The translations under genes and the position numbers were made by a program. From contig PNKV01000004.1 of NCBI GenBank assembly GCA_013822685.1, positions 1 to 64,000 on the forward strand: DNA of 64,000 nt, written 5' to 3'. The DNA comes from Leptothrix sp. (in: b-proteobacteria). GTDB taxonomy: Bacteria > Pseudomonadota > Gammaproteobacteria > Burkholderiales > Burkholderiaceae_C. The notes beneath the pieces were generated by a model that was not told the origin of the DNA, ran no database searches, and saw only the letters and a list, made by a program, of their open reading frames with translations. Below, piece by piece: positions 25,109 through 41,222 of this stretch. The first letter of the stretch is position 1. The number at the start of each line of letters is the position of its first letter.

Positions 25109-26983
25109 TCACTGCACCTCGTCAGACGAGAAACGGGCCGCGCCGTATTCGTCATCGCACCCCGGGCCGCCTTGGCACTGAACCGCGCCAGCGAAGGCTG
25201 AGCCTGCGCCGGTGTGCCGCTTGGCGATGTCCAGCGCGGCGTCGGGCTTGGGGTACATGCCAAAGCCGCCATCGTTTTTCAAACCCGCCGCGTCGAAATT
25301 GCGCGGCTGGCTGGAGACGATCACCAGGAAGTGATCGGTGCCCGCCGGGCCGGCCACGTCCATGGGCCAGGTGGCTTGCGGCAGGTTCAAGGTCTGGCCG
25401 GCCTTGATGCGGTTGTTGCGCGCCATCTTGTTGGGAAAGAGCTGCATGAACTCGCCCTCGGTGCTTTGCAGCAGCACATAGACATGCCCCTCACGCGCCG
25501 ACTTGACGGTGAAGGCCAGCCGGTCCCGGCCAATGCGGAATTGCGGCTTGGCAGGGGCGGCCTCCACGGTGAAGCCGGGTGTTTGCGCCGCCAGGATGCG
25601 GTCGAACTCGCGCAGGGCGTTGAACGGGCCCTCGACCACCGGTGGGGCCGCCACCTCCACGGGTGGGGGCACTGGCGCGGGCGCCACGGCCGGTGGTGGT
25701 GCGGCCACCGGTGCCGCCGGAGCTGCGGTGGATGGCGTGGTGGATGGCGTGGCCTGGGTCGCGACCTCGGGGGCCGGCGCTGGCGGTGCCGATGAGGGGG
25801 TCAACAGCCAGAAGGCCGCGCCACCCAGGCCGGCCAACACCAGTGCGCCAGCACCGATCATCAGGCCCGTGCGCGAGGGCGCGGGTGCCGTGCTGGGTGA
25901 TGTTGCCTTGGTGTTGGCAGGCGCTGGCGTGGGTGCGCCTGCGCGCGCGGTAGTGGTCGCGGCACCTGGCGGTGCCAGCTTCACCGGCTGCGTCACCATG
26001 GGGTTGAAATCCACGCCGCCCAGGCCGAGGTTGGCGCGCAACTCCGCCACGCTTTGCGTGCGGTCTTCGGGCTTGACGACCAGCGCCCGGTCCATGGCGT
26101 TGAGGAAGCGTTCGCTGTACTTGCCCGCCAGTTGCTGGGACAGCGGCGTGTAGTTGTCGCTCATCAGCCGGCCCACGGCGGGCGGCGGCGTCTTGCCCAA
26201 AATCGCGTAGTGGATCGACGCGGCCAAGGCGTAAATGTCGGTCCAACCGCCTTGCTTCATGCCGGGCACTTCGGCGTATTGCTCCACCGGCGCGTAGCCC
26301 GGCTTCAGGATCACCGTGAGCGCCTGTGTCATGTCGCCGATCACGCGGCGCGCGGCGCCGAAGTCCAGCAGCAGCGGGCGGCCACTGCCTTTCAGCAGGA
26401 TGACGTTGTCGGGCGCGATGTCACGGTGAAAGCACTGCTCGGCGTGGATCACCTCCAGCGCCTCGGTCAGCGGGGCGAGCATGCCCATCAGCCAGGCCTC
26501 GTCGGGCGGGCCGTTCATGTCCTTCAGGGCCTGCTTGAGCGTCTGGCCTTCGTAGAAGGGCATGATCATGTAGGCCGTGCCATTGGCTTCCCAGAAGCGG
26601 TACACCTTCACCAGCGAGGCGTGGTCGAACTGGGCCAGCAGCTTGGCCTCGTTCACGAAGCTTTTCAGGCCGGCCTCAAAGGTGTCGCGGTGTCGCTCGG
26701 ACTTGACCGACACCTGCGTGCCGCCACTGCGCGCGGCCAGGGCCGAGGGCATGTACTCCTTGAGGGCCACGCGGCGTTCCAGCGAGTGATCCCAGGCCAT
26801 GTAGACGATGCCGAATCCCCCCTCGCCCAGCATGCTCGTGATCTCGAACTCGCCCAGGTAGGTGCCGACCGGCAGCGCATTGCCGTGGTCGTCCTGGGCT
26901 GGCGTGGGCGCGGCGGCGGGCATTGGCTGCGTGCGGTTGACCGGCTTGATGACAGTGCGGTCGTCGTCGGGGTGATCGCTCAT
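25109..26983 (-). CDS. ppkA: T6SS-associated Ser/Thr protein kinase (PpkA/TagE) with DUF4384 periplasmic domain
   Basis: A 624-residue inner-membrane kinase. The cytoplasmic kinase domain (about 42-310) has the glycine loop LGEGGFGIVY, VALKEYMP with the ATP-binding Lys, CFHRDIAPDNVILL (HRD) and LLLDFGAARR (DFG). A Pro/Ala-rich linker, one membrane helix (LMIGAGALVLAGLGGAAFWLL) and a DUF4384 domain with YVLLQSTEGEFMQLFPN follow. The start is the ATG of MSDHPDDDRT; a much longer open frame upstream reads through tagF in another frame. The tagF start-side neighbour is 41 bases away. PpkA phosphorylates T6SS components to trigger assembly, with PppA (46.6 kb) as the opposing phosphatase. Thr10 lies in DDRTVIKP, a motif shared with TssL and TagH. 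Confidence 0.87.
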   Translation of the reverse strand: MSDHPDDDRTVIKPVNRTQPMPAAAPTPAQDDHGNALPVGTYLGEFEITSMLGEGGFGIVYMAWDHSLERRVALKEYMPSALAARSGGTQVSVKSERHRDTFEAGLKSFVNEAKLLAQFDHASLVKVYRFWEANGTAYMIMPFYEGQTLKQALKDMNGPPDEAWLMGMLAPLTEALEVIHAEQCFHRDIAPDNVILLKGSGRPLLLDFGAARRVIGDMTQALTVILKPGYAPVEQYAEVPGMKQGGWTDIYALAASIHYAILGKTPPPAVGRLMSDNYTPLSQQLAGKYSERFLNAMDRALVVKPEDRTQSVAELRANLGLGGVDFNPMVTQPVKLAPPGAATTTARAGAPTPAPANTKATSPSTAPAPSRTGLMIGAGALVLAGLGGAAFWLLTPSSAPPAPAPEVATQATPSTTPSTAAPAAPVAAPPPAVAPAPVPPPVEVAAPPVVEGPFNALREFDRILAAQTPGFTVEAAPAKPQFRIGRDRLAFTVKSAREGHVYVLLQSTEGEFMQLFPNKMARNNRIKAGQTLNLPQATWPMDVAGPAGTDHFLVIVSSQPRNFDAAGLKNDGGFGMYPKPDAALDIAKRHTGAGSAFAGAVQCQGGPGCDDEYGAARFSSDEVQ

Positions 26984-27024
26984 GCGCTGCTGGAGACCTC
27001 TGGCTGGTGATGCGTGCGGTGATT

Positions 27025-27741
27025 CTAGGCGGCGGCGCTGCCCAGCAGGGCGGCAAATCCGTCGCCCCGTGGCAAACCACGCGAAACCAGGCTGCGTGGC
27101 GCGCCCTCGGCCGATTCGGCCCACCAGAAGGCCAGGCCTTGCGCGGCGGTTTGCCATTGCGTGGCGGCGCTCAGCTCCAGCAAGATGCTCAGGTGGTGGC
27201 GGCTGGGCAGGGGCAAGGTGGCGTGCGGCAGCCGGCCCTGGATCACATCGCTCAGGGCGTTCAGCGCTGCGCACGGCGCGCTGTGTGGCGTGTTCATGGG
27301 CAGGCGCTCCAGTTCGGCTTCGAGCTGGTCCACGCTCCAGTCCTCGTGCAGGGCGTCGGCGGCGGTGTCGTCAAGCTGATGCAGCCAGGCCTGGAGGTCA
27401 TCGACCTGGGCCATGGACTGCGGCACGGTGCCCAAGGGCGCGGCCAGCGTCAGCGGAAAGTAGCGCCCCACGCGGTCAACCGAGGGCATCAGCACGCCCG
27501 CCATGGCGGTGTCCAGGCCGATCACGCCGGGCATCAGCACGAAGCGCCAGACCGGGCTGGCCAGGTAATGCGCCAGCCAGGCGTCTTCCGCCTGGGCGCG
27601 CAGCCCGGCGATGCCTTCGGCCAGCCAGGCATCCCAGGGGGTGATGAAGCCGGGTTCGAGCCGGCGTGAGGCGAAGTCGCCCAGGGTGGGCAGCTTGCCG
27701 TACCAGCCGGGGATGGGGTGCTGTGCGGTCATGGCTGGCAT
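27025..27741 (-). CDS. tagF: T6SS-associated protein TagF
   Basis: A 238-residue cytosolic protein of the TagF/SciT family (DUF2094). In the threonine-phosphorylation pathway of T6SS, TagF is a post-translational repressor that binds Fha. Family features are the N-terminal GWYGKLPTLGDFASRRLEPGF and WDAWLAEG, the PVWRFVLMPGVIG segment, the VGRYFPLTLAAPL motif and the C-terminal LAFWWAES. Two in-frame ATGs (27741 and 27732) are possible starts; neither has a strong ribosome site. It is directly upstream of ppkA in the same direction, which supports co-regulation. Confidence 0.9.
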   Translation of the reverse strand: MPAMTAQHPIPGWYGKLPTLGDFASRRLEPGFITPWDAWLAEGIAGLRAQAEDAWLAHYLASPVWRFVLMPGVIGLDTAMAGVLMPSVDRVGRYFPLTLAAPLGTVPQSMAQVDDLQAWLHQLDDTAADALHEDWSVDQLEAELERLPMNTPHSAPCAALNALSDVIQGRLPHATLPLPSRHHLSILLELSAATQWQTAAQGLAFWWAESAEGAPRSLVSRGLPRGDGFAALLGSAAA

Positions 27742-27834
27742 GATGACCGAAAAATAGAGAGCGCTTTAAACCAACCCTTCGACGCTCATGCTGTGTTCTG
27801 CCAGCCAGGCCATGGGCCTGCCCTTATCGGCCGA

Positions 27835-28197
27835 TCACATCTCCACAATGCTTTTGAACCCACCAAAGAACATGCGCGCGCCGTCGAAGGGCATTTTGTC
27901 GGGCGACATCATGTCCTTCAGGCGTGGGTCTTCCATGACCTTGGCATTGATGGTGTCGCGCTCTTCGCGCGAGTTGTAGATGATCCAGGAGAACACCACG
28001 ACCTCGTCGTCCTTGAGCTGCACGCTTTGCGGGAAGGACGTGAGCTTGCCGGGTTTCACGTCGTCGGCCACGCATTCCCAGTACTCCAGCGCGCCATGTT
28101 CCTTCCAGACCTTGCCGGCGGTTTCAGCGATCTGGCGGTAGTCGTCGAGCTTGGCCTTGGGCACGGGGAGCACGAATCCGTCAACGTAGTGAGCCAT
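27835..28197 (-). CDS. DUF1428 family protein
   Basis: A 120-residue small cytosolic protein of the DUF1428 family (E. coli YbaA type, dimeric alpha-beta barrel fold, function unknown). It begins MAHYVDGFVLPVPKAKLDDYR, has the conserved ALEYWECVADDV and VVVFSWIIYNSREERD, and ends FDGARMFFGGFKSIVE, matching the family over its full length. The ATG at 28197 is preceded by AAGGAGAA, a strong ribosome site. The open frame continues upstream without family similarity. It is divergent from the GNAT gene and has no evident T6SS link. Confidence 0.9.
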   Translation of the reverse strand: MAHYVDGFVLPVPKAKLDDYRQIAETAGKVWKEHGALEYWECVADDVKPGKLTSFPQSVQLKDDEVVVFSWIIYNSREERDTINAKVMEDPRLKDMMSPDKMPFDGARMFFGGFKSIVEM

Positions 28198-28302
28198 GTC
28201 ATTCTCCTTGCGGGTGAGTGGGTTCTGCAGTTTCGCAAACTGGGCTAAGGTGGGGCCCGGCGCAGGGGCGATGACCCCATCACTCATCAGGGAAGCCATC
28301 AC

Positions 28303-28875
28303 ATGATCAGAACCGCCACGGCCGCGGACGAAGCCGCCGTCATCAGTGCCCTCGTGCTCGCGTTCAGCACCGACCCCGCCGTGCGCTGGACCTGGCCCGA
28401 TCCGCAGCAATACCTGCGCAACTTCCCGCCCTTCGTCAAGGCGTTTGGCGGGCGGGCGTTTGCCCTGGGCAGTGCCCACGTGGCACCCGACTTCGCAGGG
28501 GCGGCACTGTGGCTGCCACCTGGTGCCGAGATGGACGACGAGGGCGTGACCGACATCGTGGAAAGCACCGTGTCCCCGCAGGCCGAGAACGATGTCTTCC
28601 CTTTGCTAGAACAGATGGGGCTGCACCACCCCAAGGAGCCGCATTGGTACCTGCCCTTGATCGGCGTGGACCCGGCCCGGCAGAACCAGGGCCATGGCGC
28701 GGCCTTGATGAAGCATGCGATGACCGCGTGCGACCGCGACGGCCAGCTGGCCTACCTGGAATCGACCAACCCGCGCAATGTGCCGCTGTACGAGCGGCAC
28801 GGCTTCGAGATGTTGGCGCGCTTGCAGGTGGGCAGCTCGCCGCCCATCTTCCCGATGCTGCGCCGGCCTCGCTGA
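28303..28875 (+). CDS. GNAT family N-acetyltransferase
   Basis: A 190-residue acetyl-CoA-dependent N-acetyltransferase. The GNAT core is visible: an N-terminal strand/helix (MIRTATAADEAAVISALVLAF), HWYLPLIGVDPARQNQGHGAALM with the Q/RxxGxG/A pyrophosphate-binding motif A, and LESTNPRNVPLYERHGFEML as motif B. The substrate is unknown. It stands alone between two minus-strand genes and ends 21 bases from the convergent opgH stop. Confidence 0.9.
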   Translation: MIRTATAADEAAVISALVLAFSTDPAVRWTWPDPQQYLRNFPPFVKAFGGRAFALGSAHVAPDFAGAALWLPPGAEMDDEGVTDIVESTVSPQAENDVFPLLEQMGLHHPKEPHWYLPLIGVDPARQNQGHGAALMKHAMTACDRDGQLAYLESTNPRNVPLYERHGFEMLARLQVGSSPPIFPMLRRPR

Positions 28876-28896
28876 GCCCGGCTCACTACACAGCGA

Positions 28897-31041
28897 TCAG
28901 GCGTGCGAGGTGGCGCGCCGCTCCTGGTGGCTGGGAAAGAGCACGGCCGCCCGCAGTTGCTGCAAGGTGCCCGGCTCGCTCAAGAAGCGCATGACTTCGG
29001 CCGGCGTGGGCTTGGCGCCCTGGGTGGCCAGTTGCTCGATGCGCGCGCGGCGGGCGTGGCCACGCAGGCCTTGCGAGGTGCGGCGCGAGCCCATGGCCCC
29101 GCTCACCACCGCGCACAGGCGGGGGTTGTCCAGCACCTCGTTCCAGCCCAAGGGTTGGGCAGGTTGCTCGGCGTAGTTCCAGGCACGGCGCAGCACCGAG
29201 GGCGTCCACGATTCTTCGGGCACCAGCAGCAGTTCCGACTGGCGAACCTTCTCGCCCAATGCCGTGCGGCTGGTCATCACCGTGAAGGGAATGGCCAGCA
29301 ACAGCGGCACACCCACGGGCAGCAACCACAGCAGGGCGGGCGGGTGCACCAGGGCCAGCACGGCGGCGATCGCCACCACGCCCAATCCGGCTTTCGCAAA
29401 GCTTTGGCGGGCTTCTTTCCAGCTCACATCGGTGGCCTCGCGCGGGGGCGATTTCCACTCCAGCTTCAAGCCGGTGAGCGCGGCCACCACGAAGATCGAA
29501 TGCGCCACCATGCGCAGCGGTGCCTGCATGGCCGACAGGCCGAACTCGATGAAGGCGCTCTTGATCAGCTTGGGTGTGCCGCCATAAAAACGTTGCTCGT
29601 CTTTCATGACCACGGCCAGCACGCCCAGCAGGCGCGGCAGCACCAGCATCGCGATGGTGCCGGCCCACAGGCCCATCACGCCCACCGTCAAGTCGCCTTC
29701 AGGGGTGAAGAACACATTGCCACCGACCAGCCACAGCATCGCGCCCAAGGCCACGTAGACCAGCCACAGCGGGGCCGACAGGTAAGCCATGGCGCCGGTG
29801 ACCAGCATGCCGCGGTGCACTGCGTGCAGGCCGGGTTCCGTGATCAGGCGAGCGTTCTGCAGGTTGCCCTGGCACCAGCGGCGATCGCGTTGCAGCTCGG
29901 CCAGGATGTGGGGCGGTTGTTGCTCGTAGCTGCCCACCAGGTCGGGCACCAGCCACACGTGGTAGCCGGCGCGGCGCATCAGCGCGGCTTCGACAAAGTC
30001 GTGCGACATGATCTCGCCGCTCAAGCCGCCGGTGCCGTCCAGAGGCGCCAAGGCGCAATGCTTCATGAAGGGCTCGATGCGGATGATGGCGTTGTGGCCC
30101 CAGTAGTGGGCCTCGCCCAGCTGCCAGTACTGCATGCCGGCGGTGAACAGGCGGCCCGTCACGCGGGACGAGAACTGTTGGCCACGCGCGTGCACGGTGT
30201 TCAAACCCACGCCTTGCGGCGCGGTCTGCAGGATGCCGGCGGTGGGGTGGGTCTCCATCAGGCGCACCAGGGTCACCAGGCAATCGCCGCTCATCACGCT
30301 GTCGGCATCCAGCACGACCATGTAGCGGTAGCTCTTGCCCCAGCGGCGGCAAAAATCGGCCACGTTGCCGGCCTTGCGCTTGGTGCGGCGTTGGCGCCAG
30401 CGGTAGAAGATGCGGTCGCTGTTCAGGGTGCCACGCAGCTCGGACCAGGCGGCCAGCTCGGCGGCGCGCACGGCGGGGTCGCTGCTGTCCGACAGGATGA
30501 ACACGTCGAACAAGCGATCAGCGCCCGTGGTGGCCAGTGATTCGCACGTGGCGCGCAGGCCGGCGAACACCGTGCTCACGTCTTCATTGCAGATCGGCAT
30601 GATGACGGCGGTGCGCGCGCTGGCGCTCAGTGGCCGGTTGCTGACCGTGTTCTTGGACAGCGCGTGCTTGTCGCCCTTGACCAGCACCCAGAAGCCCATG
30701 ACAGCGGTGATGCAGCCGGCCGACACCCACGCGAACAGCAGCGCGAACAGACCAATCTGCATCCACTGCAGCAAAGGGTGTTCGTAGGTGGGTTGCGACC
30801 AGGCCAACACGGTGGTGGCCAATGCCGTGCTCAGAGCGATCAAGACCATCAACACGCGGCGGCGTGCGCGGGCGGCCTGTTCCCAGGCGGCCATGGCAAT
30901 GCCGGTGTTGGCGCCAGCCTCCAGCGCAGGGCCCTGGCCCTTGACGGCGTCGACCAGGCCGCGCGTGAAGCCGCGCCAGGGCCGGGCCACCATCGCGCCA
31001 CGGGCGTGAGGCGGCATGCTGGGTCCGAAGACACTGCTCAT
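28897..31041 (-). CDS. opgH: Glucans biosynthesis glucosyltransferase OpgH (MdoH)
   Basis: A 714-residue inner-membrane family-2 glycosyltransferase that polymerises UDP-glucose into the beta-1,2 backbone of osmoregulated periplasmic glucans and passes it through the membrane. It has two N-terminal helices (about 60-120), a cytosolic GT2 domain with MPICNEDV, VVLDADSVMSG (DxD region), SHDFVEAALMRRAG and the RDRRWCQGNLQ motif, then several C-terminal helices. The ATG at 31041 overlaps the opgG stop by 4 bases (ATGA); another ATG at 31065 would add eight residues. Gene order opgG-opgH is the standard one, so both should follow the same promoter upstream of opgG. Confidence 0.95.
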   Translation of the reverse strand: MSSVFGPSMPPHARGAMVARPWRGFTRGLVDAVKGQGPALEAGANTGIAMAAWEQAARARRRVLMVLIALSTALATTVLAWSQPTYEHPLLQWMQIGLFALLFAWVSAGCITAVMGFWVLVKGDKHALSKNTVSNRPLSASARTAVIMPICNEDVSTVFAGLRATCESLATTGADRLFDVFILSDSSDPAVRAAELAAWSELRGTLNSDRIFYRWRQRRTKRKAGNVADFCRRWGKSYRYMVVLDADSVMSGDCLVTLVRLMETHPTAGILQTAPQGVGLNTVHARGQQFSSRVTGRLFTAGMQYWQLGEAHYWGHNAIIRIEPFMKHCALAPLDGTGGLSGEIMSHDFVEAALMRRAGYHVWLVPDLVGSYEQQPPHILAELQRDRRWCQGNLQNARLITEPGLHAVHRGMLVTGAMAYLSAPLWLVYVALGAMLWLVGGNVFFTPEGDLTVGVMGLWAGTIAMLVLPRLLGVLAVVMKDEQRFYGGTPKLIKSAFIEFGLSAMQAPLRMVAHSIFVVAALTGLKLEWKSPPREATDVSWKEARQSFAKAGLGVVAIAAVLALVHPPALLWLLPVGVPLLLAIPFTVMTSRTALGEKVRQSELLLVPEESWTPSVLRRAWNYAEQPAQPLGWNEVLDNPRLCAVVSGAMGSRRTSQGLRGHARRARIEQLATQGAKPTPAEVMRFLSEPGTLQQLRAAVLFPSHQERRATSHA

Positions 31042-32591
31042 TGGGGAGGAATGACGTTGGTCCATGTTTCGCTCACTGTGTCGTTGCCGTGTTGCAAGAA
31101 GGCGCGCAGCTCGACGGGCTGCGTGTCCTTGATCTGTTTGACCTTCAAGGTCATGCGCCAGGTGCGGTTGCCCCCGTTGCGGTAAAGGTTGCGTTCCACG
31201 ATCTCGCCGTTGGCATCGCTGCTGACCACGGCCTTGAGGGCCGCATTGGCGGGCAGCTTGTCCAGCGCCGGGCCGGTGAATTCCACCAGGTACTGGTGCT
31301 CGTTGGCGCCCAGCGCATCCAGGCCTTGGCCCACGCGCGATTGCGTCACCCAGGCGGTGGGCGGGCGTTGCTGCTGCTGGCTTTGCCAACGCATCTGGTA
31401 AGACAGCTTCAGGGGCTGGCCGATGGCGGGCAGTTTCTCGGGAACCCAATAGGCGACCACGTTGTCGTGGGTTTCGTCGGGGGTGTTCAGTTGCACGAGT
31501 TCGACGCGGCCCGGGCCCCAATCGCCTTGGGGCGTGATCCAGGCACTGGGCCGGCGGTCGTAGCGCGCCTCGGCGTCTTCGTAGCTGGCAAAACTGCGGT
31601 CACGCTGCATGAGGCCAAAGCCCTTCAATGACTTCATCGCGAACGAGGTCGTCAAGGTTTGCTTGGGGTTGATCAGCGGGCGCCACAGCCATTCGCCTTC
31701 GCCAGTGGCCACCATCAGGCCATCGGAGTCGTGCACCTCGGGGCGGAAATCGCCTCGGCGCGGTTGGTTCTCGCCCGACAGGAACATGCTGGTCAAAGGC
31801 ACCGCCCCGAAGGTGGCGACCGGGCCGCGCAGGTACAACTGCGACTGCACGTCGGTGACGGTGTCGGTGCCGGGCTTGACCTCGAAGCGGTAGGCGCCCG
31901 TGGCACGGGGCGACTCCATCAGCGCATAAACCACCAGCGATTTGGCGTTGGCCTTGGGCTTTTCGATCCAGAACTCCGAGAAGCGCGGGAACTCCTCTTT
32001 CTCGCCGCCCACGGTGTCGATGGCCAGGCCGCGCGCCGACAGGCCGTAGTGCTGGTTCGCGCCGATCGCCCGGAAATAGCTGGCGCCCAGGAAGACGATG
32101 ACTTCGTCTTTGTAGTTGGCCGTGTTCACCGGGTAATGCACGCGAAAGCCCGCGTAACCGACATCACCCCAGCTTTGGGGCGACAGCTTGTTGCGGCCGT
32201 AGTCGAAATCGTCGCGGTTGAAGGCCAGGTGGCGCACCTCGCCCTTGGGCGTGATCTCGTTGATCAGGACGGGCTGGTTCTGCAGCTTGCCCAGGTGGAA
32301 GAACATCAGCTCGAAGGGCAGCTTGTCCTGGCGCCACAGTGCGCGCTCGGGCTTGAAGCGGATGTCGCGGTATTGGTCGTAGCTGATGGCCTTCAGCTCG
32401 TCGGGCAAGGTGGACGGGCGGGGCTCGTAGGGCTTGGCCGCCAGTTGCTGGGCCTGCGTGGCCACATCCTGGAAGTCAAAAGCCCGGGCAGGACCCCAGC
32501 CTGCCAGCAAGGCCACGCCGGCCAACAGCCAGCCGGACAGCGTCTTGGCTGCCAAGGTGGTGGAGGGGGTTTGGGCGGTGCTCATGCCCAT
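31038..32591 (-). CDS. opgG: Periplasmic glucans biosynthesis protein OpgG (MdoG)
   Basis: A 517-residue periplasmic protein needed for branching and release of osmoregulated periplasmic glucans. The signal peptide (GWLLAGVALLAGWGPARA, cut before FDFQDV) is followed by the family N-terminal domain (PYEPRPSTLPDELKAISYDQYRDIRFKPERALWR) and the conserved SYFRAIGANQHYGLSARGLAIDT. The start is uncertain: ATG at 32591 or 32585, or a TTG at 32618. A sigma54 promoter match at 32597-32612 predicts transcription starting near 32586, which would exclude the upstream starts and make the 32585 ATG nearly leaderless. OPGs affect envelope stress, motility and virulence in proteobacteria. Confidence 0.94.
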   Translation of the reverse strand: MGMSTAQTPSTTLAAKTLSGWLLAGVALLAGWGPARAFDFQDVATQAQQLAAKPYEPRPSTLPDELKAISYDQYRDIRFKPERALWRQDKLPFELMFFHLGKLQNQPVLINEITPKGEVRHLAFNRDDFDYGRNKLSPQSWGDVGYAGFRVHYPVNTANYKDEVIVFLGASYFRAIGANQHYGLSARGLAIDTVGGEKEEFPRFSEFWIEKPKANAKSLVVYALMESPRATGAYRFEVKPGTDTVTDVQSQLYLRGPVATFGAVPLTSMFLSGENQPRRGDFRPEVHDSDGLMVATGEGEWLWRPLINPKQTLTTSFAMKSLKGFGLMQRDRSFASYEDAEARYDRRPSAWITPQGDWGPGRVELVQLNTPDETHDNVVAYWVPEKLPAIGQPLKLSYQMRWQSQQQQRPPTAWVTQSRVGQGLDALGANEHQYLVEFTGPALDKLPANAALKAVVSSDANGEIVERNLYRNGGNRTWRMTLKVKQIKDTQPVELRAFLQHGNDTVSETWTNVIPPQ

Positions 32592-32596
32592 TGATT

Positions 32597-32612
32597 TGCA
32601 ATGTGCGTGCCA
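32597..32612 (-). promoter_or_regulatory. Sigma54 (-24/-12) promoter of opgGH
   Basis: Read on the minus strand this is TGGCACG-CACA-TTGCA, a full match to the sigma54 consensus TGGCACG-N4-TTGCW, including the invariant GG and GC. It lies directly upstream of the opgG start, in the right orientation, and 156 bases beyond the stop of a sigma54 activator gene of the NtrC/GlrR type. The predicted transcription start is about 32586. Confidence 0.72.
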
Positions 32613-32630
32613 CGCCAAAAATCTCTTTTA

Positions 32631-32643
32631 AATCAAACACTTA
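32631..32643 (+). promoter_or_regulatory. IHF consensus site 1 upstream of opgG
   Basis: AATCAAACACTTA matches WATCAANNNNTTR at every defined position. It lies between the sigma54 promoter and the GlrR-like sites, where IHF usually bends DNA at sigma54 promoters. It forms one arm of a perfect 14-bp inverted repeat (32629-32642 with 32735-32748). Confidence 0.5.
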
Positions 32644-32695
32644 AGGCGGAGTTGTCACCAAATTGGCCGCCAGTGCCGCAATGCAGCAGCAAAAC

Positions 32696-32713
32696 CGTCG
32701 GGCCAGCCCGACG
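32696..32713. promoter_or_regulatory. GlrR-like half-match site (CGTC-N10-GACG)
   Basis: A perfect inverted repeat (CGTCGGGC-CA-GCCCGACG) keeps the GTC-N10-GAC core of the TGTC-N10-GACA site described for enterobacterial GlrR. It is centred about 118 bases upstream of the predicted opgG transcription start, a typical enhancer distance. It could also be a simple hairpin. Confidence 0.35.
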
Positions 32714-32733
32714 AGCACCCCGGTAAAGCGTGC

Positions 32734-32746
32734 CAAGTGTTTGATT
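32734..32746 (-). promoter_or_regulatory. IHF consensus site 2 (inverted copy)
   Basis: On the minus strand this reads AATCAAACACTTG, again matching WATCAANNNNTTR at every defined position. It is the opposite arm of the 14-bp perfect inverted repeat and lies between the two GlrR-like sites. Confidence 0.4.
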
Positions 32747-32753
32747 TATAACG

Positions 32754-32783
32754 AAAAAAGCTTGTCGCTATTCGGCGACAGGC
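32754..32783 (-). terminator. Intrinsic terminator of the glrR-like gene
   Basis: On the minus strand a 9-bp stem (one G-T pair) with a 6-base loop is followed by six T residues. The glrR stop codon falls in the loop. The same sequence contains an exact TGTC-N10-GACA. Confidence 0.6.
32763..32780. promoter_or_regulatory. GlrR-type binding site TGTC-N10-GACA
   Basis: This is an exact match to the enterobacterial GlrR (QseF) operator consensus, centred about 186 bases upstream of the predicted opgG transcription start. It overlaps the terminator hairpin of the glrR-like gene, so its symmetry has an alternative explanation. Confidence 0.4.
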
Positions 32784-34132
32784 CCGTCGGCGCGGAACAC
32801 CCCGGGGGTCAGGCCGTGCTTTTGCAGCAGGCGGTAAAACTCGGTCCGGTTGCGGCCGGCCAAACGGGCAGCGTCGGCCACGCTGCCGTCGGTCAGCTTG
32901 AGCAGATCGACCAGGTATTCGCGCTCAAAGCGCAGGCGCGCCTCTGTGAAAGTAAGCACTTCCACACTGGGCACGCGAAGCGCACGTTGCACCAGGGCCA
33001 AGGGGATCAAGGGCGTGGTGGCCAGGGCGCTGACCTGCTCGACCACGTTGTGCAACTGCCGCACATTGCCCGGCCAGGGCGCGGTGGCCAGGGCCTTCAC
33101 CGCCTCGGGCGCGAAACCGTTGACGCGCTTGTTGTACTTCAGGGCCAGCTTGGCCAGGAAGTGGTTGGCCAACAGCGGGATGTCTTCGCGGCGCTCGGCC
33201 AGGGTGGGCAAGGTCAGCGACACCACGTTCAGGCGGTAGTACAGGTCTTCGCGGAACTCGCCGGCGGCCATGGCCGCGTCCAGGTCGCGGTGGGTGGCCG
33301 ACATGATGCGCACGTCGATCGGGATCGCCTGGCTGGCCCCCACCGGCCGCACCACGCGCTCTTGCAGCACGCGCAGCAGCTTGACCTGCAGGGCCACCGG
33401 CATGTCGCCGATCTCGTCCAGGAACAAGGTGCCGCCATTGGCCGCCTGGAACAGGCCGGCGTGGTTGGCCACCGCGCCCGTGAAAGCGCCCTTGATGTGG
33501 CCGAACAATTCGGATTCGAGCAGGCTTTCGGGGATGGCGCCGCAGTTGACGGCGACGAAGGGCTGCGAGGCGCGCGGGCTGGCACGGTGGATGGCCTGGG
33601 CCAGCACCTCCTTGCCGCTGCCGCTTTCGCCCCGGATCAGCACGCTGGCGTCCGAGCCGGCCACCAGCTTGGCCTCGGCCAGCAGCTCGGCCATCACATT
33701 GGAGCGGCTGACGATGTCTTCGCGCCAGGATTCGTTGGCACTGGCGCTCTTGCTGTAGTCAGTGGGCGAGCCCAGGGCCAGGGCCTGGCCGATGGTCTCG
33801 AGCAGCGCCTTGCCGTTGAAGGGTTTGGTCAGGTAGGTGTAGACACCACGCGAGGTGGCCTCGACCGCGTCGGGGATGGTGCCGTGCGCGGTCAGCAAAA
33901 TCACGGGCAGCGAAGGGTGCTTGGCGCGGATGGCGTCGAACAGCGCCAGGCCATCCTTGCCGGGCAATTGCACGTCGCTGAGCACCAGCTGGGGCCGCTC
34001 CACGGCCAGGTGCGACAAGGCGGCTTCGGCCGATTCAACCGCCGTGACGCGGTAGCCCGCGGCCGTCAAGCGCATGGACAGCAAGCGCAGGATGTCGGGG
34101 TCGTCGTCGACCAGCAGGACGTGGGCGCTCAT
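32768..34132 (-). CDS. glrR: Sigma54-dependent response regulator, GlrR/QseF type
   Basis: A 454-residue NtrC-family activator. It has a receiver domain (1-120, VLLVDDDPDILRLL, phospho-Asp in LVLSDVQLPG, Lys in YLTKPF), a central AAA+ domain with Walker A GESGSGKE, the sigma54-contacting GAFTGA loop (IKGAFTGAVANHAG), Walker B GGTLFLDEIGD and the R-finger region, and a Fis-type helix-turn-helix (SVADAARLAGRNRTEFYRLLQKHGL). The C-terminal NRTEFYRLLQ form is typical of GlrR/QseF. The ATG overlaps the upstream qseG stop by 4 bases. With GlrK and QseG it forms an operon. Its likely target opgGH is immediately downstream. Confidence 0.92.
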   Translation of the reverse strand: MSAHVLLVDDDPDILRLLSMRLTAAGYRVTAVESAEAALSHLAVERPQLVLSDVQLPGKDGLALFDAIRAKHPSLPVILLTAHGTIPDAVEATSRGVYTYLTKPFNGKALLETIGQALALGSPTDYSKSASANESWREDIVSRSNVMAELLAEAKLVAGSDASVLIRGESGSGKEVLAQAIHRASPRASQPFVAVNCGAIPESLLESELFGHIKGAFTGAVANHAGLFQAANGGTLFLDEIGDMPVALQVKLLRVLQERVVRPVGASQAIPIDVRIMSATHRDLDAAMAAGEFREDLYYRLNVVSLTLPTLAERREDIPLLANHFLAKLALKYNKRVNGFAPEAVKALATAPWPGNVRQLHNVVEQVSALATTPLIPLALVQRALRVPSVEVLTFTEARLRFEREYLVDLLKLTDGSVADAARLAGRNRTEFYRLLQKHGLTPGVFRADGPVAE

Positions 34133-34779
34133 GGCCGTTGTGCAGGTTTGGCGGACGAGGCCTGCGGTGCGGCCGGGCCCGGCGCGGGCGTGCTCCGGCT
34201 GTTCAGGCTGCGCTCGATGGACTTGAGCGCTTCCAGCTTTTCATTGAGCTGATCGAGCTTGCGCTGGTTGTCTTTTTGCGTGTCGCGCAGTTGCTGGTTG
34301 ACTCGCTCGATCTGGTCTTCGGCGCGGCGCTGCTCGGCATAGCGGCTGGACAGCAGGCGTGCCAGGCCGTGCCAGGCTTGCGCTTCGAGCGAGGGATTGC
34401 CGATGACCTGGTCCAGCAGGCTCTGCGCTTTGGCCAGGTCGCCATTGGCGCGCGTGTAGCCCAAGGCCAAGGCCAGGTCCATGGTGGCCTGGACCGAACT
34501 GGCGCCATCCCCCAGCCGGGTCAATTCGCGTGACAGATCAGGCGGAGGCAGCTTGGCCAGGGTCTCCTGGTAGGCCAGCAGGTGGCGCGCGGCGGTGTCC
34601 ACCGGCTCCAGGGTGGGCACGTAGACGATGGCGGGGGCGGGCGGCAGCTCGACCACCTTGGGCTCGGGCGGCGGTTGCAGTGGCGCGCAGGCCATGAGGG
34701 CCCCGGCCACCACCAGGCACGCCGCGGTGCAGCGTGGTCGGGAGCGGGCCAGCCAGGGCTGGAAATCACATGACGGCAT
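34129..34779 (-). CDS. qseG: QseG-like outer-membrane lipoprotein
   Basis: A 216-residue lipoprotein. The signal peptide ends in a lipobox LMAC (Cys about 32), and the mature part is Pro-rich and then helical, with a C-terminal coiled coil (about 150-205: DQIERVNQQLRDTQKDNQRKLDQLNEKLEALKSIE). In Enterobacteriaceae QseG is encoded between the kinase GlrK/QseE and the regulator GlrR/QseF and activates the kinase from the periplasm; order and topology here match. The start ATG at 34779 overlaps the end of glrK by 14 bases. Identification rests on position and architecture more than on conserved residues. Confidence 0.75.
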   Translation of the reverse strand: MPSCDFQPWLARSRPRCTAACLVVAGALMACAPLQPPPEPKVVELPPAPAIVYVPTLEPVDTAARHLLAYQETLAKLPPPDLSRELTRLGDGASSVQATMDLALALGYTRANGDLAKAQSLLDQVIGNPSLEAQAWHGLARLLSSRYAEQRRAEDQIERVNQQLRDTQKDNQRKLDQLNEKLEALKSIERSLNSRSTPAPGPAAPQASSAKPAQRP

Positions 34780-36190
34780 TCGGAAGCTCGATTCGAAAAT
34801 GGGCGCCCGGTCCTTCGGGCAGCAGATCCACGCGCCCGCCATGCGCCTCAACGTACTCGCGCACGATGGACAGGCCGATGCCGGTTCCGCGCACGGCGCC
34901 CTCGGGCTGGCGTTCACCACGGTAAAAAGGTTCAAACACCCGCGCGCTGTCGCTCTCGGCGACACCGGTGCCTTGGTCCACGATGTCGATGCGGGCCAGG
35001 CCGGGCAAGCGGGTCAATGAGAATCGGATGGTAGCGCCGGGCGGGCTGAAGCGTATGGCGTTGGACAAAAGGTTACCCAAAGCGGTGCCCAATTTTTCCG
35101 GGTCAACCTCGACGTGCAAGGGACCGCCCGCCACGTTGATGTGCAATTGGCGCGCTTGCCATTGCAGGCGCTGCGCATCCACCAGGCTTTGGATCAGCTC
35201 GGCCAGATCGGTCTTGCGGCGGCTCAGGCGGCGGGCATCGAAGGCGGCGGCATTGAAGCGCAGCAGGTCTTCGATCTGGCTTTGCAACGCCGCCGTGTTG
35301 TGCCCCAGGATCTGCGCGATCTCGCGCTGGTCGGCACTGAGCTCACCCGCCACGCCATCTTCCAGCAAGGCCACGCCTTCGCGCAGCGCGGCCAGGGGCG
35401 TCTTCAGCTCGTGCGAGACGTGGCGCAAGAAGCGCGACTTGTCGTCGTCGAGCTCTCTCAAGCGCAGGCGCAGCCACTCCAGGCGCTGGCCGAGCGAGCG
35501 CAAGTCGCTCGGCCCCTGGATGTTCACGGGCACGTCCAGCCGGTTCTCGCCCAGGCCCACGATGGCGCGCTCCAGCCGCTTCAAGGGCCGGGTCAGCCAC
35601 ACGCCAAAGCCCAGGGCCATCACCACCGCCAGCGCGATGGCGCCCAGCACCTGCCGGGCCAGGGCCGCGCGGCCGGCTTCCAGTTCATCTTGCAGGCGGT
35701 GATTGCGCTGCTCGCTGTCTTTGCGCACCTGTTCGGCGATGGCCGCGTTGGTGAGGTCCAACTCGCGGAACTGCTGGGCCAGGGCCAGCTCGCGCAGGTG
35801 CCCAGTGGCCTTGGGGCCCTTGAATTGGTCGGTGATCACCGTCAGCTGGCCGCGCCATCGCGCCACCAGGGCCGGGGGCAATTGCTGCGCCTGCAGTTCT
35901 TCCAGCACGCGGTTGGCGTCCTTGGTGGCGTCTTCAAAGCGGCGCAACAGCACGGGGTCGTCCAGCACCAGGTATTGGCGCGCGGCGCGTTCCATGGCCA
36001 CGCTGCGCTCGGCCAGGTGCTGCGTGCCGGCGCTTAATTGCACGGCGCGCTCGGCGGCGGCGCGGCTTTGCACCATCAGCCGTTCCAGCGTGAACAAGCC
36101 GCCCAGCGAGGCGGCGGCCAGCAAGCCGGCTATCAGCAGGAAGGCGGCCAGCAGCAGCTGGCGGAATGACGCGCGGTAGAAGGTCAACAT
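34766..36190 (-). CDS. glrK: Sensor histidine kinase, GlrK/QseE type
   Basis: A 474-residue inner-membrane kinase. It has a membrane helix at about 12-34 (LLLAAFLLIAGLLAAASLGGLF), a helical periplasmic sensor of about 140 residues, a second helix (VLGAIALAVVMALGFGVWL), HAMP, HisKA with FLRHVSHELKTPLAALREG, and HATPase_c with LGNLLSNAIRFSP, DQGTGV and GTGIGLSIV. The sensor and the KTPLAALREG helix are of the GlrK type. It phosphorylates GlrR. The start ATG at 36190 is 50 bases beyond the tssM stop, so the trio could be read from the T6SS transcript. Confidence 0.88.
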   Translation of the reverse strand: MLTFYRASFRQLLLAAFLLIAGLLAAASLGGLFTLERLMVQSRAAAERAVQLSAGTQHLAERSVAMERAARQYLVLDDPVLLRRFEDATKDANRVLEELQAQQLPPALVARWRGQLTVITDQFKGPKATGHLRELALAQQFRELDLTNAAIAEQVRKDSEQRNHRLQDELEAGRAALARQVLGAIALAVVMALGFGVWLTRPLKRLERAIVGLGENRLDVPVNIQGPSDLRSLGQRLEWLRLRLRELDDDKSRFLRHVSHELKTPLAALREGVALLEDGVAGELSADQREIAQILGHNTAALQSQIEDLLRFNAAAFDARRLSRRKTDLAELIQSLVDAQRLQWQARQLHINVAGGPLHVEVDPEKLGTALGNLLSNAIRFSPPGATIRFSLTRLPGLARIDIVDQGTGVAESDSARVFEPFYRGERQPEGAVRGTGIGLSIVREYVEAHGGRVDLLPEGPGAHFRIELPNAVM

Positions 36191-36240
36191 GCCCAGGGAG
36201 TCGAGGATCGGTCCGTGGACTTTAACGGTTGACTGGCTTT

Positions 36241-39200
36241 CTAAAACGCCCCCGGGCACCTGAACTGCTGGATCTCGCGCAACCTGAACGGGTTGAACGC
36301 GCTGCTCGATGTCACCTCCAGTTTGGCCCGTTTGCCATCCACATTCACCACCACGGTGAAGCGCTCCGGCTGCCCTGAAGGCTGAACCTCAAAGCGATCA
36401 AACATCCGGAACAGCGCCCAGGGCCCATCGAAGGTCATGCCCGCGCCACCGGCCGACAGCTTGATCTGCGAGGCCACGCGCTGGCCCGGCCAGTTGACGG
36501 TGACCGGTGTGGTGTTGCCCGGTGTGAACTTGGTGACTTGGCCATCGATGTCCAGCGCCACTTCCTTGGCGCCATCCAGCAACTCCAGCGCGCGGATGTC
36601 GACCCGGAACGAGGGCGCCTTGCCGCCATTGCGGAAGAACACATCCTTGATGCGCGCGGCCCGCTGGAAGTCGGCCAGCGACGAGGGGGACGGCGGCTTG
36701 GTGCCATCGGTCAGCGGCTTGAGGGACCAGGGGTTGGTGCCTGTGTCCACCAGGTTCACCAGCTTGCGTTGGTAAAAGTCGTCGATCAAACCACCCTGGC
36801 CGAAGAACTGGCCGAAGTCGTCCGGCATCACGTTGGCCTGCGAGCTGGCGCTGAAGGGATAGCGGCCCGCGATGGCGCGCGCGCAGAACTCGGCGATGGG
36901 CTTGATCTCGTCACTCAGGCTGGCCCGCTCGGCCACGCGGCTTTGCGAGGCGCCGGCATCCGAAAGCGCCGTCAGCATGGACTTGATGGGCTCGGGCTGC
37001 TGGCCGGCAGCGGCCTTGATGCGGTCGGCGCCACCGGCGGGCGGTGGGGGCGACTTGCTCTTGGCGGCGGCGTCCACGGCCGACAGTTGCACGTAGACCT
37101 CGTTGAACATCTTCAGCGTTTCATCAATGGGCGCGGGCTGGCCGGTGACCTGGCGGCGTATGTCGGCGAAGTGGTCGTCCACGATGCGCTCGATCGGGCC
37201 ATTGGCCGCATCGGCGGCGGGCAGGGGCTGCGCACCGCTGAGCGCGGCCAGCTCCTTGCGGGCGGCCTCGGCTTTGTTGGCCACGTCGGTCAAGGGATTG
37301 GCCCCCGCGGCCGCAGCCGGCGCGGGCACCAGCGTGGTTTCGCGGGCCACGGCGCGCAGGTAGGCGGCCAGCGGCGAATCCACGGCCGACACCACGCGCG
37401 CCACCTGGATGCTGCGGTCCAGGCCGGTCAGCTTCACCAGGTGCACATCGGCCAGGTAGGCGTCCCAGGTCTTCACGTAATCCTCAAGATACAGCCGGCG
37501 CACGCGCTTGGGCAGCTCACCGGTCAAGGCGATGTCTCGCAGCTTGGCAGGGTCCGTCTTGGTGCCCAGGATCCAGCCTTCTTCGGTGGCCAGTTGCAGC
37601 GTGGCTTTCTCGACCGATTTCTGGAAAGCCTTTTGGTAACCATCGCGCGTGAACAGGCCCGGGATGCCCTTGGTCAGCGGCTGGCCGCTGGTGCGCTCGA
37701 ACACCTGCGCGGCGTTCGGCCCAGCGGCGCTGGCCACGGTGAACTCGGGGATGTCGGCGCCGGTCTGCGCGCGCTTAAGGCGGCTGTAGACGCGGTATTC
37801 CAACGGGTAGGACACCAGCATGTCGCGCACGCTGGCCACCAGGGCCGTGTCCATGGCCACGGTGGGTTGTGGCGCGCCTTGCGCCAAGGCCGCGTCCAGG
37901 TGCGAGTTCAAGGCCGCGCGCTGCTCAGGCGTCAAGCTGTTGGCCAGGTTCACTTCCCAGTCGATGCTGATCCAGGCCTTGAGTGTGTCGGCGTCGAACT
38001 TGTCGGGCGTGTACAGCATCAGGTAGGCCTTGAGCGCCTCGTAGGCGAACTCCAGGTTGTCCTTGTTGGCGCCACGCAGGCGCTCTTCCAGGCGCTTGGC
38101 CACACGCGGCATCAGCGCGTGCTGCAGCAGGTGGTTGAAGCCTTGCTGCGCGCCCGCGTCCAGTTTGTCGCCCTGGTACAGGCCCAAGGTGTTGAGCAAG
38201 GGGGGGTGGGCGATGTCGAACTCGGCGGGGTGGGCGGCATTGCGCACCAGGTCGAGGATGGCGGGCAGCGGCGTCACGTCGCCCGTGTTGGCGGGCGGGA
38301 TGGCGTTCACGGCCTGCTGCAGCTCCGGCAGCTTGCCCTGGATCTGCGCGATGTAGGCCTTGTTGCGGCTGTAGCTCACGGCCCAGCCCACCAGCAGCGC
38401 GGTGGCCAGCACCCCAATGCCAGCCAGGGCGGCGATGCGCAGCACCGTGCGGCGTTGCTCTTCCTTCTTGTTGACGCCGACCAGGCCTTGCTCGGCGAAG
38501 ACCACGTCGCGCAGCAGGCGGTGCAGGAAGAAGCTCTTGCCTTTGCCGCTGGACAGCGAGGCCACCTTGCGCTCCACGCCAAAGGCGCGGGCCAGCGCGC
38601 CCATGACGCGGTCGATGGGCGTGCCCTCTTGCGTGCCGCTGGTGAAGTAGATGCCGCGCAGCAGCGGGCGTTGCTCGAACTGCCCGCCGCCGGTGAAGAC
38701 CTGGGTGAGGAAGTCCGACAGCACAGGCTTCAGGCTGGCGAACTCTTGCGGGAATGCGAACACGGCGGCGCGCTTGAGCACCTCGCGCTCGGCATCCATG
38801 CGGTCGATCAGGCGGTCACGCAGGCGCTGTTCCAGCGCGGTGAACTCGCCCATGAAATCACCCAGGGGCGTCTCTTTGTCTTGCAAAGGGGCATCCGCGT
38901 TGTAGGGCAGGCTGAAGCCCCACACTTGGTCGCGCTCTTCCTTGCTCAGTTCACCAAAGCTTTCGTTGAAGCCGGCGATCAGGTCGGCCTTGGTCACCAG
39001 CACGTACACGGGCACACTCAAGCCCAGCTTGTCGTGCAGCTCTTGCAGGCGGGCGCGCAGCTTGGCGGCGTGCTCCTGCCGTTCATGCACGCCTTGCTGC
39101 AGCAGGTCCTGGATGTTGACGGTCAGGATCACGCCGTTCAAAGGGCGGCGTGGGCGCGTCTTCTTCAGCAGGGCGAGGAAGCCATCCCAGGCGGCGGCGT

Positions 39201-39780
39201 CGACCTTGCTGTCGGATTCTTGCGTGGTGTAGCGGCCGGCGGTGTCGATCAGCACGGCCTCGTCGGTGAACCACCAGTCGCAGTTGCGCGTGCCGCCCAC
39301 GCCCTTGACGGACGCCTGGCCCAGCTTCTCGGCCAGCGGGAAGTTCAGGCCCGCGTTCATCAGGGCCGTGGTCTTGCCCGAGCCCGGGGCGCCAATGAAG
39401 ATGTACCAGGGCAGCTCGTACAGGTGCTGGCTGCGCTTGAACAGCGAAGGCTTGCGAGAAGTCTGAAGCACGCCCATCGCTTGCGTGAAGCGCTCGTTCA
39501 AGGTGGCCACTTCGCGGTCAGACGCCGAAGGCCCGCCCGTCATGCCTTGCACCAGCGCCGCGTTCGTGCGCTTGCGCTGCCAGGCGCCATAGGCCACCTT
39601 GGCGGCCAGCAGCAGGAACAGCACGGCGATGATCGCCACGCGCACCCACACCGAATCAAAAGGGCGCGACTCGCCAATGGCGATCAAGGGCCCGACCCAC
39701 CAGACGATGGCCGACAGTGCGAGCAAACCCAGCACGGCCAGGAACACGGGGTGCAAGAGCACTTGCAGCAGCTTTTTCAT
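36241..39780 (-). CDS. tssM: T6SS membrane-complex protein TssM (IcmF)
   Basis: A 1179-residue inner-membrane core subunit of the T6SS TssJLM complex. There are two N-terminal helices (about 10-32 and 47-66), a cytoplasmic GTPase-like domain with an intact Walker A GAPGSGKT (130-137) and DTAGRY (switch/Walker B), a third helix around residue 455 (IAALAGIGVLATALLVGWAV), then the large periplasmic IcmF-related and DUF1215 region ending in the C-terminal beta domain (VVNVDGKRAKLEVTSSSAFNPF), which contacts TssJ and the outer membrane. The length is typical. It is preceded by tssL (19-base gap) and tssK. Confidence 0.96.
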   Translation of the reverse strand: MKKLLQVLLHPVFLAVLGLLALSAIVWWVGPLIAIGESRPFDSVWVRVAIIAVLFLLLAAKVAYGAWQRKRTNAALVQGMTGGPSASDREVATLNERFTQAMGVLQTSRKPSLFKRSQHLYELPWYIFIGAPGSGKTTALMNAGLNFPLAEKLGQASVKGVGGTRNCDWWFTDEAVLIDTAGRYTTQESDSKVDAAAWDGFLALLKKTRPRRPLNGVILTVNIQDLLQQGVHERQEHAAKLRARLQELHDKLGLSVPVYVLVTKADLIAGFNESFGELSKEERDQVWGFSLPYNADAPLQDKETPLGDFMGEFTALEQRLRDRLIDRMDAEREVLKRAAVFAFPQEFASLKPVLSDFLTQVFTGGGQFEQRPLLRGIYFTSGTQEGTPIDRVMGALARAFGVERKVASLSSGKGKSFFLHRLLRDVVFAEQGLVGVNKKEEQRRTVLRIAALAGIGVLATALLVGWAVSYSRNKAYIAQIQGKLPELQQAVNAIPPANTGDVTPLPAILDLVRNAAHPAEFDIAHPPLLNTLGLYQGDKLDAGAQQGFNHLLQHALMPRVAKRLEERLRGANKDNLEFAYEALKAYLMLYTPDKFDADTLKAWISIDWEVNLANSLTPEQRAALNSHLDAALAQGAPQPTVAMDTALVASVRDMLVSYPLEYRVYSRLKRAQTGADIPEFTVASAAGPNAAQVFERTSGQPLTKGIPGLFTRDGYQKAFQKSVEKATLQLATEEGWILGTKTDPAKLRDIALTGELPKRVRRLYLEDYVKTWDAYLADVHLVKLTGLDRSIQVARVVSAVDSPLAAYLRAVARETTLVPAPAAAAGANPLTDVANKAEAARKELAALSGAQPLPAADAANGPIERIVDDHFADIRRQVTGQPAPIDETLKMFNEVYVQLSAVDAAAKSKSPPPPAGGADRIKAAAGQQPEPIKSMLTALSDAGASQSRVAERASLSDEIKPIAEFCARAIAGRYPFSASSQANVMPDDFGQFFGQGGLIDDFYQRKLVNLVDTGTNPWSLKPLTDGTKPPSPSSLADFQRAARIKDVFFRNGGKAPSFRVDIRALELLDGAKEVALDIDGQVTKFTPGNTTPVTVNWPGQRVASQIKLSAGGAGMTFDGPWALFRMFDRFEVQPSGQPERFTVVVNVDGKRAKLEVTSSSAFNPFRLREIQQFRCPGAF

Positions 39781-39799
39781 GCAGCGATCCTGAAGAAAA

Positions 39800-41158: not shown

Positions 41159-41222
41159 GGCAACCTCAGGAACGCAAGGTCAAGGGGACCGCTTGAATGA
41201 ATGATTCGGCTTGGCGCCCGCC

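Follow-up and report, generated by a model that had tools for sequence, protein, structure and literature searches.

The DNA region separating the glrR-like gene from opgG in the 64-kb stretch of Leptothrix sp. DNA analyzed here (hereafter the window) very probably constitutes an enhancer-dependent GlrR/sigma54/IHF promoter, driving the transcription of opgG and opgH; judged from the sequence, we assign this reading a probability of about 0.88. According to the proposed mechanism, phosphorylated GlrR, produced from the operon located just upstream, would bind to two dyads approximately 118 and 185 bp upstream of the transcription start. IHF would bend the DNA at about position -51 (and -154), bringing GlrR to the sigma54-RNA polymerase at the -24/-12 element, where ATP hydrolysis by GlrR would open the promoter and permit transcription of opgG-opgH. 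An envelope signal sensed by GlrK/QseG could in this way directly raise the synthesis of osmoregulated periplasmic glucans. We infer the GlrR binding, the transcription start, the signal and the leaderless translation considered below from nucleotide sequences.

Genes and predicted control elements of the glrR-opgG region

The genes from the kinase gene to opgH are all located on the minus strand. The gene for the sigma54 activator (32768..34132) encodes a protein composed of a receiver domain, an AAA+ domain containing the GAFTGA motif and a helix-turn-helix (HTH) domain, as is the case for GlrR orthologues. It shares 267 identical residues with GlrR of E. coli K-12 (444 aa), including an identical HTH stretch (GRNRTEFY). 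The best NCBIfam model is GlrR, but the score (625 bits) is below the curated cut-off (763), and therefore the protein is referred to as GlrR-like, the name GlrR being based on best match and synteny. The label is nevertheless well supported by these comparisons. The labels of the two preceding genes are weaker. The putative QseG-like lipoprotein (34129..34965, putative start) matches the NCBIfam QseG model with an E value of 9e-4 and a score of 18.4 bits (cut-off 234), and a C-terminal likeness was noted by eye. The GlrK-like sensor kinase (34766..36259), whose real start may be situated more downstream, shares 162 identical residues with E. coli GlrK (475 aa); its best NCBIfam model is CreC, with a score under the cut-off. 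On the other side of the control region, opgG (31038..32585; MdoG match, E value 7.5e-197) begins at the ATG at 32585 (+2) or, alternatively, at the ATG at 32591 (-5), and is followed by opgH (28897..31338, putative start; MdoH match, 1078 bits).

A search of the source genome revealed the presence of sigma54, IHF alpha (above cut-off) and one close GlrR. Two matches to the sigma54 DNA-binding domain were detected, corresponding to two rpoN-type sigma54 genes (G000:C26:3192-3656 and C1:31748-32221).

The sigma54 promoter consensus consists of GG-N10-GC in a TGGCAC/TTGC context. The minus strand of the window contains an element, TGGCACGCACATTGCA (32612->32597), with 12/12 consensus letters; with the C of the -12 GC counted as -12, the inferred transcription start is located at about 32586. 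Upstream of it are two dyads, considered putative GlrR sites. UAS1, of the form TGTCGC-N6-GCGACA (TGTC-N10-GACA), occupies positions 32763-32780 (10th base at -185) and overlaps the stop codon of glrR; it is found at the same position in the relative L004, and in the clade of the window it is followed on the minus strand by a T-run, which in the window reads TTTTTT. UAS2 (32696-32713; 10th base at -118) is a variant, CGTCGGGCTGGCCCGACG (CGTC-N10-GACG). UAS1 agrees exactly with the TGT-N12-ACA consensus of GlrR sites and UAS2 (CGT..ACG) departs from it. The two dyads are separated by 67 nt in the window and by 68-69 nt in two loci of the same genus (L088 and L089), in which the second dyads are of intermediate sequence and the promoter is placed more downstream than in the window. 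The IHF consensus is WATCAANNNNTTR, which in an IHF-assisted promoter is expected between the UAS and the promoter, and this is the arrangement found in the window: the proximal site, AATCAAACACTTA, lies on the plus strand at 32631-32643 (centre at about -51) and the distal site, AATCAAACACTTG, on the minus strand at 32746->32734 (centre at about -154). Thus, the sigma54 string, two IHF sites and two dyads claimed in the sequence-only reading of this DNA are all present at the positions given there, as is the claimed adjoining GlrR-like gene, which runs from 34132 to 32768 and has UAS1 overlapping its stop.

The window was scanned for each motif separately. The full sigma54 string has one exact match; with two mismatches allowed, six matches were found compared with 15.2 in shuffles, and therefore only the exact match stands out. 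The IHF consensus occurs three times (0.26 expected), two of these being in the control region, and TGTC-N10-GACA also occurs three times (0.67 expected), which is weak when taken alone. Genome-wide, there are three exact sigma54 strings (reversed control, one) and two places with an exact TGTCGC-N6-GCGACA (reversed control, one). The second of these places (L102) lies between genes labeled by eye as outer-membrane-protein-like and HPr-like, and inspection of it by eye for a sigma54 element revealed none. Since the single motifs are weak, conservation had to decide; on the sequence evidence it is the cluster of motifs together with its conservation that is decisive, and no single motif.

Conservation among linked loci and association with GlrR

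The relatives examined comprise 63 loci of related Burkholderiales in which a GlrR gene adjoins opgG: 61 of the best 80 (of 180) opgG relatives, a proportion that refers to these best 80 and is not a population frequency, plus L088 and L089. Neither the window itself nor the loci duplicating its nearest kin (L001, L084-L087) were counted. The named loci represent 11 named genera. The linked loci are related, and the 63 are therefore not independent, so that 16 representatives with <70% identity in the first 260 nt were also defined.

The sequence-only reading had made its proposal depend on conservation in relatives, and this comparison bears it out, as the elements do not vary freely and are placed at matching positions. 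A sigma54 element with at least 10/12 consensus letters is present in 62/63 linked loci (2.0% of 2520 shuffled versions of these regions), the sole exception being L042 (9/12). All 63 loci contain the TGTCGC-N6-GCGACA dyad when one mismatch is allowed (0.16% of the 2520 shuffles); it is exact in 56, and 53 contain two or more such dyads. A proximal IHF-like site (at most one mismatch) is situated 49-54 nt upstream of the inferred +1 in 57/63 loci, 46 of these sites being exact, and six loci lack a proximal match. Proximal and distal IHF-like sites occur together in 46/63 loci.

Where the positions of the dyads vary among genera, they do so in steps of approximately one helical turn. UAS2 is located near -98, -109, -119, -129 or -139 in 57 loci, and UAS1 mostly near -163, -186, -195 or -206, with two off-series cases at -177 and -179. 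In a Rayleigh test of the 16 representatives (13 scorable per site), taking dyads at -80 to -215 only, a period of 10.5 bp gave p values of ~6e-5 for UAS2 and ~0.009 for UAS1. The values were 4e-5 and 0.007 for 10 bp, and 5e-4 and 0.02 for 11 bp; since p is low at all three periods, the exact period is not fixed by the test. Three loci (L041, L088 and L089) have at least one dyad more than 215 nt upstream, outside the range of the test. Between loci, the dyads thus tend to be displaced by full turns of the helix, as far as can be read from the sequences.

Among 30 control loci in which no GlrR match adjoins opgG, some of which are probably the same place in two collections (identical matches), an exact dyad plus a sigma54 element of at least 10/12 was found in only one (L006) and the element alone in four more; these loci were scanned for exact dyads, compared with at most one mismatch for the 63 linked loci. 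GlrR was then searched for in 14 whole genomes. All three with a dyad and element at opgG carry GlrR elsewhere: 80% identical in both G159 and G320, which have the strict composite at opgG, and 63% identical in the genome of L006, in which the spacing is longer. Among the 11 genomes without sites at opgG, nine gave no GlrR match at E 1e-120, an absence that is not certain given that several are metagenome assemblies, that 12 of the 14 have no completeness figure and that only 120 candidates were scored in 5/14. The remaining two contain a 58% identical GlrR-like gene with an opgG devoid of the sites, and constitute evidence contrary to the preferred explanation. In the cases examined, the sites appear to go with the presence of a GlrR gene. 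A scan of 450 nt at the second OpgG paralogue of the source genome (L098, G000:C6:181088-182545, 41%) revealed no sigma54 element and no dyad.

A strict composite pattern (dyad plus sigma54 element) was detected in 34/399 genomes of the family, once in each, and its reversed version in none. The 365 genomes without it include the source genome, which is missed because its UAS2 is a variant. Of the 34 hits, 30 were examined: 18 lead into opgG, 10 into opgH and two into small BON-domain proteins, and 28 of the 30 adjoin a GlrR gene. At L113 and L119, the composite promoter comes after a GlrR-like gene (67-69% identical) and leads into a small BON-domain protein (over cut-off), the start of which resembles a secretion signal.

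At class level, the pattern was found in 8/369 genomes compared with 2/369 for the reversed control, and therefore only hits with a GlrR neighbour (L136, L138 and L143) are trusted, as a lead; the other five (L137 and L139-L142) have no GlrR in view. Since dyad plus sigma54 element occurs with no GlrR in view, a dyad does not by itself prove the presence of GlrR. Small EF-hand-like proteins are encoded downstream of the dyad and element at L136, L138, L140, L142 and L143, the EF-hand match being over cut-off at L136, marginal at L143, below cut-off at L138 and recognized by eye at L142. At L141, the two sites precede an acyltransferase-like gene, which presumably resembles the autoinducer/PEP-CTERM-type acyltransferases. 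The opgG gene of an Acidovorax locus (L049) retains the sigma54 element; no exact dyad was found there and no close GlrR match in its genome, and its promoter is possibly decaying.

Alternative readings and the predicted opgG start

The dyads might instead be intrinsic terminators of the glrR operon. On the minus strand of the window each dyad forms a stem-loop with a T-rich stretch behind it, and both were classified as terminator-like; four terminator-like sites occur in 701 bases compared with 1.1 expected. This role, applicable to the window, was rejected as the conserved function of the dyads on the basis of the relatives: a T-run follows UAS1 in only 4/59 of them and UAS2 in 2/57, and in many cases (by eye) A's follow instead. 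Moreover, the dyads keep helical phase with the promoter, for which a terminator has no need, and in many loci UAS1 is placed (by eye) ahead of the glrR stop. We consider terminators a very improbable explanation, but UAS1 may additionally end glrR transcription in the clade of the window. It is scarcely credible that the 17-nt inverted repeat containing the IHF sites closes a structured, riboswitch-like leader RNA of opgG. This idea is attractive on the window alone, where the minus strand from 32760 to 32612 is predicted to fold at -57.8 kcal/mol (z -4.71), but it was rejected on the orientations of the IHF-like pairs in relatives: these are parallel in 35/46 linked loci and so cannot pair with each other. 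Among the 11 inverted pairs, the four spacer bases are shared in only three, although the IHF letters are kept. In addition, the inverted-repeat region lies upstream of the inferred transcription start, and no Rfam family reached its gathering score within 32400-32900 (three matches, E value 2 or worse).

A further possibility, which is compatible with a real sigma54/GlrR promoter and not exclusive of it, is that this promoter only tops up opgG expression, the main work being done by a sigma70-type or sigmaE-like promoter with a normal leader. An extra weak sigma70 promoter has been described for E. coli glmY (PMC6075780), and RpoD and RpoE-like promoters have been predicted for mdoG of P. syringae (PMC3247240). 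A scan of 32300-33000 revealed no sigma70-like site, a result of little weight given the GC-rich DNA of this organism. We regard such a main promoter as rather unlikely.

The GlrR/sigma54/IHF promoter would place the start of transcription at the start codon itself. In the window, the first opgG ATG follows the -12 element after a gap of 5 nt, and the second ATG begins 1 nt after the inferred start, so that the two ATGs lie at -5 and +2. In 54/63 linked loci an in-frame ATG is situated at +2 to +5 relative to the inferred start (9/63 are without it), and 23 of the 54 offer no other ATG, GTG or TTG that would leave 15 or more residues ahead of the aligned mature protein. Analysis of the 30 composite loci, which by eye partly come from the same genomes as the 63, revealed an in-frame ATG at +1 to +3 in 13/18 opgG-first loci; of the opgH-first loci, 9/10 have one at +2 or +4. 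Because the start codon is at +2 to +5 in most linked loci, a nearly leaderless opgG mRNA is predicted. Sigma54-driven leaderless mRNAs may already be known elsewhere. A codon-position count (single-change codons: 407 synonymous, 384 not) was not relied on, as the 30 loci were picked by residues 3-4 and a third-position excess is therefore partly built in.

Likeness to known GlrR-dependent promoters

In E. coli, QseF binds to three UAS with the consensus TGT-N12-ACA and, aided by IHF, directs sigma54 transcription of glmY (PMC6075780). The sites of glmY were read from the annotated K-12 record: one dyad, at -188, has the same twelve arm bases as UAS1, a second is at -125 with one mismatch and another at -221; IHF-like sites are present at -171, without mismatch, and at -52, with one, and the sigma54 element has 10/12 consensus letters. 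The layout of the window is close to that of this known GlrR/sigma54/IHF promoter. Shared features are the dyad arms TGTCGC-N6-GCGACA, the dyad positions (-118/-185 in the window, -125/-188 in glmY), the proximal IHF-like site (-51 and -52, respectively), the sigma54 element and the linkage of glrR with glrK and qseG, which in the window are putative. However, the targets differ: opgGH are protein genes located downstream of glrR, whereas glmY specifies a small RNA and lies upstream of glrK. The -52 IHF-like site of glmY also contains one mismatch and is in the opposite orientation, the distal site is at -154 in the window and -171 in glmY, there are two dyads rather than three, and in the window a start codon is placed at the inferred transcription start.

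Two other systems bear comparison. The sigma54/GlrR promoter of E. coli rpoE provides a GlrR-driven output in envelope homeostasis (PMC6075780), and, in a further source, GlrR is listed as a regulator of rpoE and RpoE as a regulator of opgG, in separate table entries, this being the one paper in which GlrR and opgG were found together (PMC10100675). These sources suggest that E. coli has an indirect GlrR-RpoE-opgG counterpart: the envelope output is shared, but the route to opgG is indirect there and predicted to be direct here. The mdoG (opgG) gene of Pseudomonas syringae is the same target gene, with no mention of sigma54 or GlrR in the accessible part of its description (PMC3247240). A literature search, with subscription papers largely outside its range, found no report of GlrR/sigma54 wiring to opgGH, and queries combining GlrR with Burkholderiales and QseF with periplasmic glucan returned nothing.

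The proposal of the sequence-only reading that the GlrK-QseG-GlrR system directly controls periplasmic glucan synthesis thus gains support from conservation, co-occurrence with GlrR and the likeness to glmY. If it is true, this synthesis would possess a dedicated, direct envelope-stress switch in many soil and water bacteria, and the E. coli links GlrR-rpoE and RpoE-opgG would have a shorter wiring elsewhere. It would also suggest that the output of GlrR outside enterics is envelope sugar synthesis and not small-RNA control, and would provide a sigma54 promoter at which near-leaderless translation can be put to the test. We give about even odds to a broader model, in which a movable GlrR cassette (paired phased dyads, IHF at -52 and a sigma54 element) is kept beside glrR and placed before an envelope target that differs from one lineage to the next: in enterics glmY, in Burkholderiales opgGH or opgH alone, and elsewhere BON-domain or small EF-hand periplasmic proteins. 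In this model the Burkholderiales mRNA would be nearly leaderless, with the sigma54 start rigidly fixed at the start codon whichever of two unrelated genes comes first.

The glrK-qseG-glrR-opgGH genes are situated within a type VI secretion cluster (window positions 25109-42560), flanked on one side by TssM and TssL and on the opposite side by TagF and a Ser/Thr kinase. The reading frame of the GlrK-like kinase overlaps the end of tssM, and co-expression with the type VI secretion system is therefore possible. The cluster also includes a neighbour gene (41223-42560) that we take to be tssK. Another part of the window (14638-23634) is occupied by a very long, repetitive ORF encoding a secreted-looking protein of 2998 aa.
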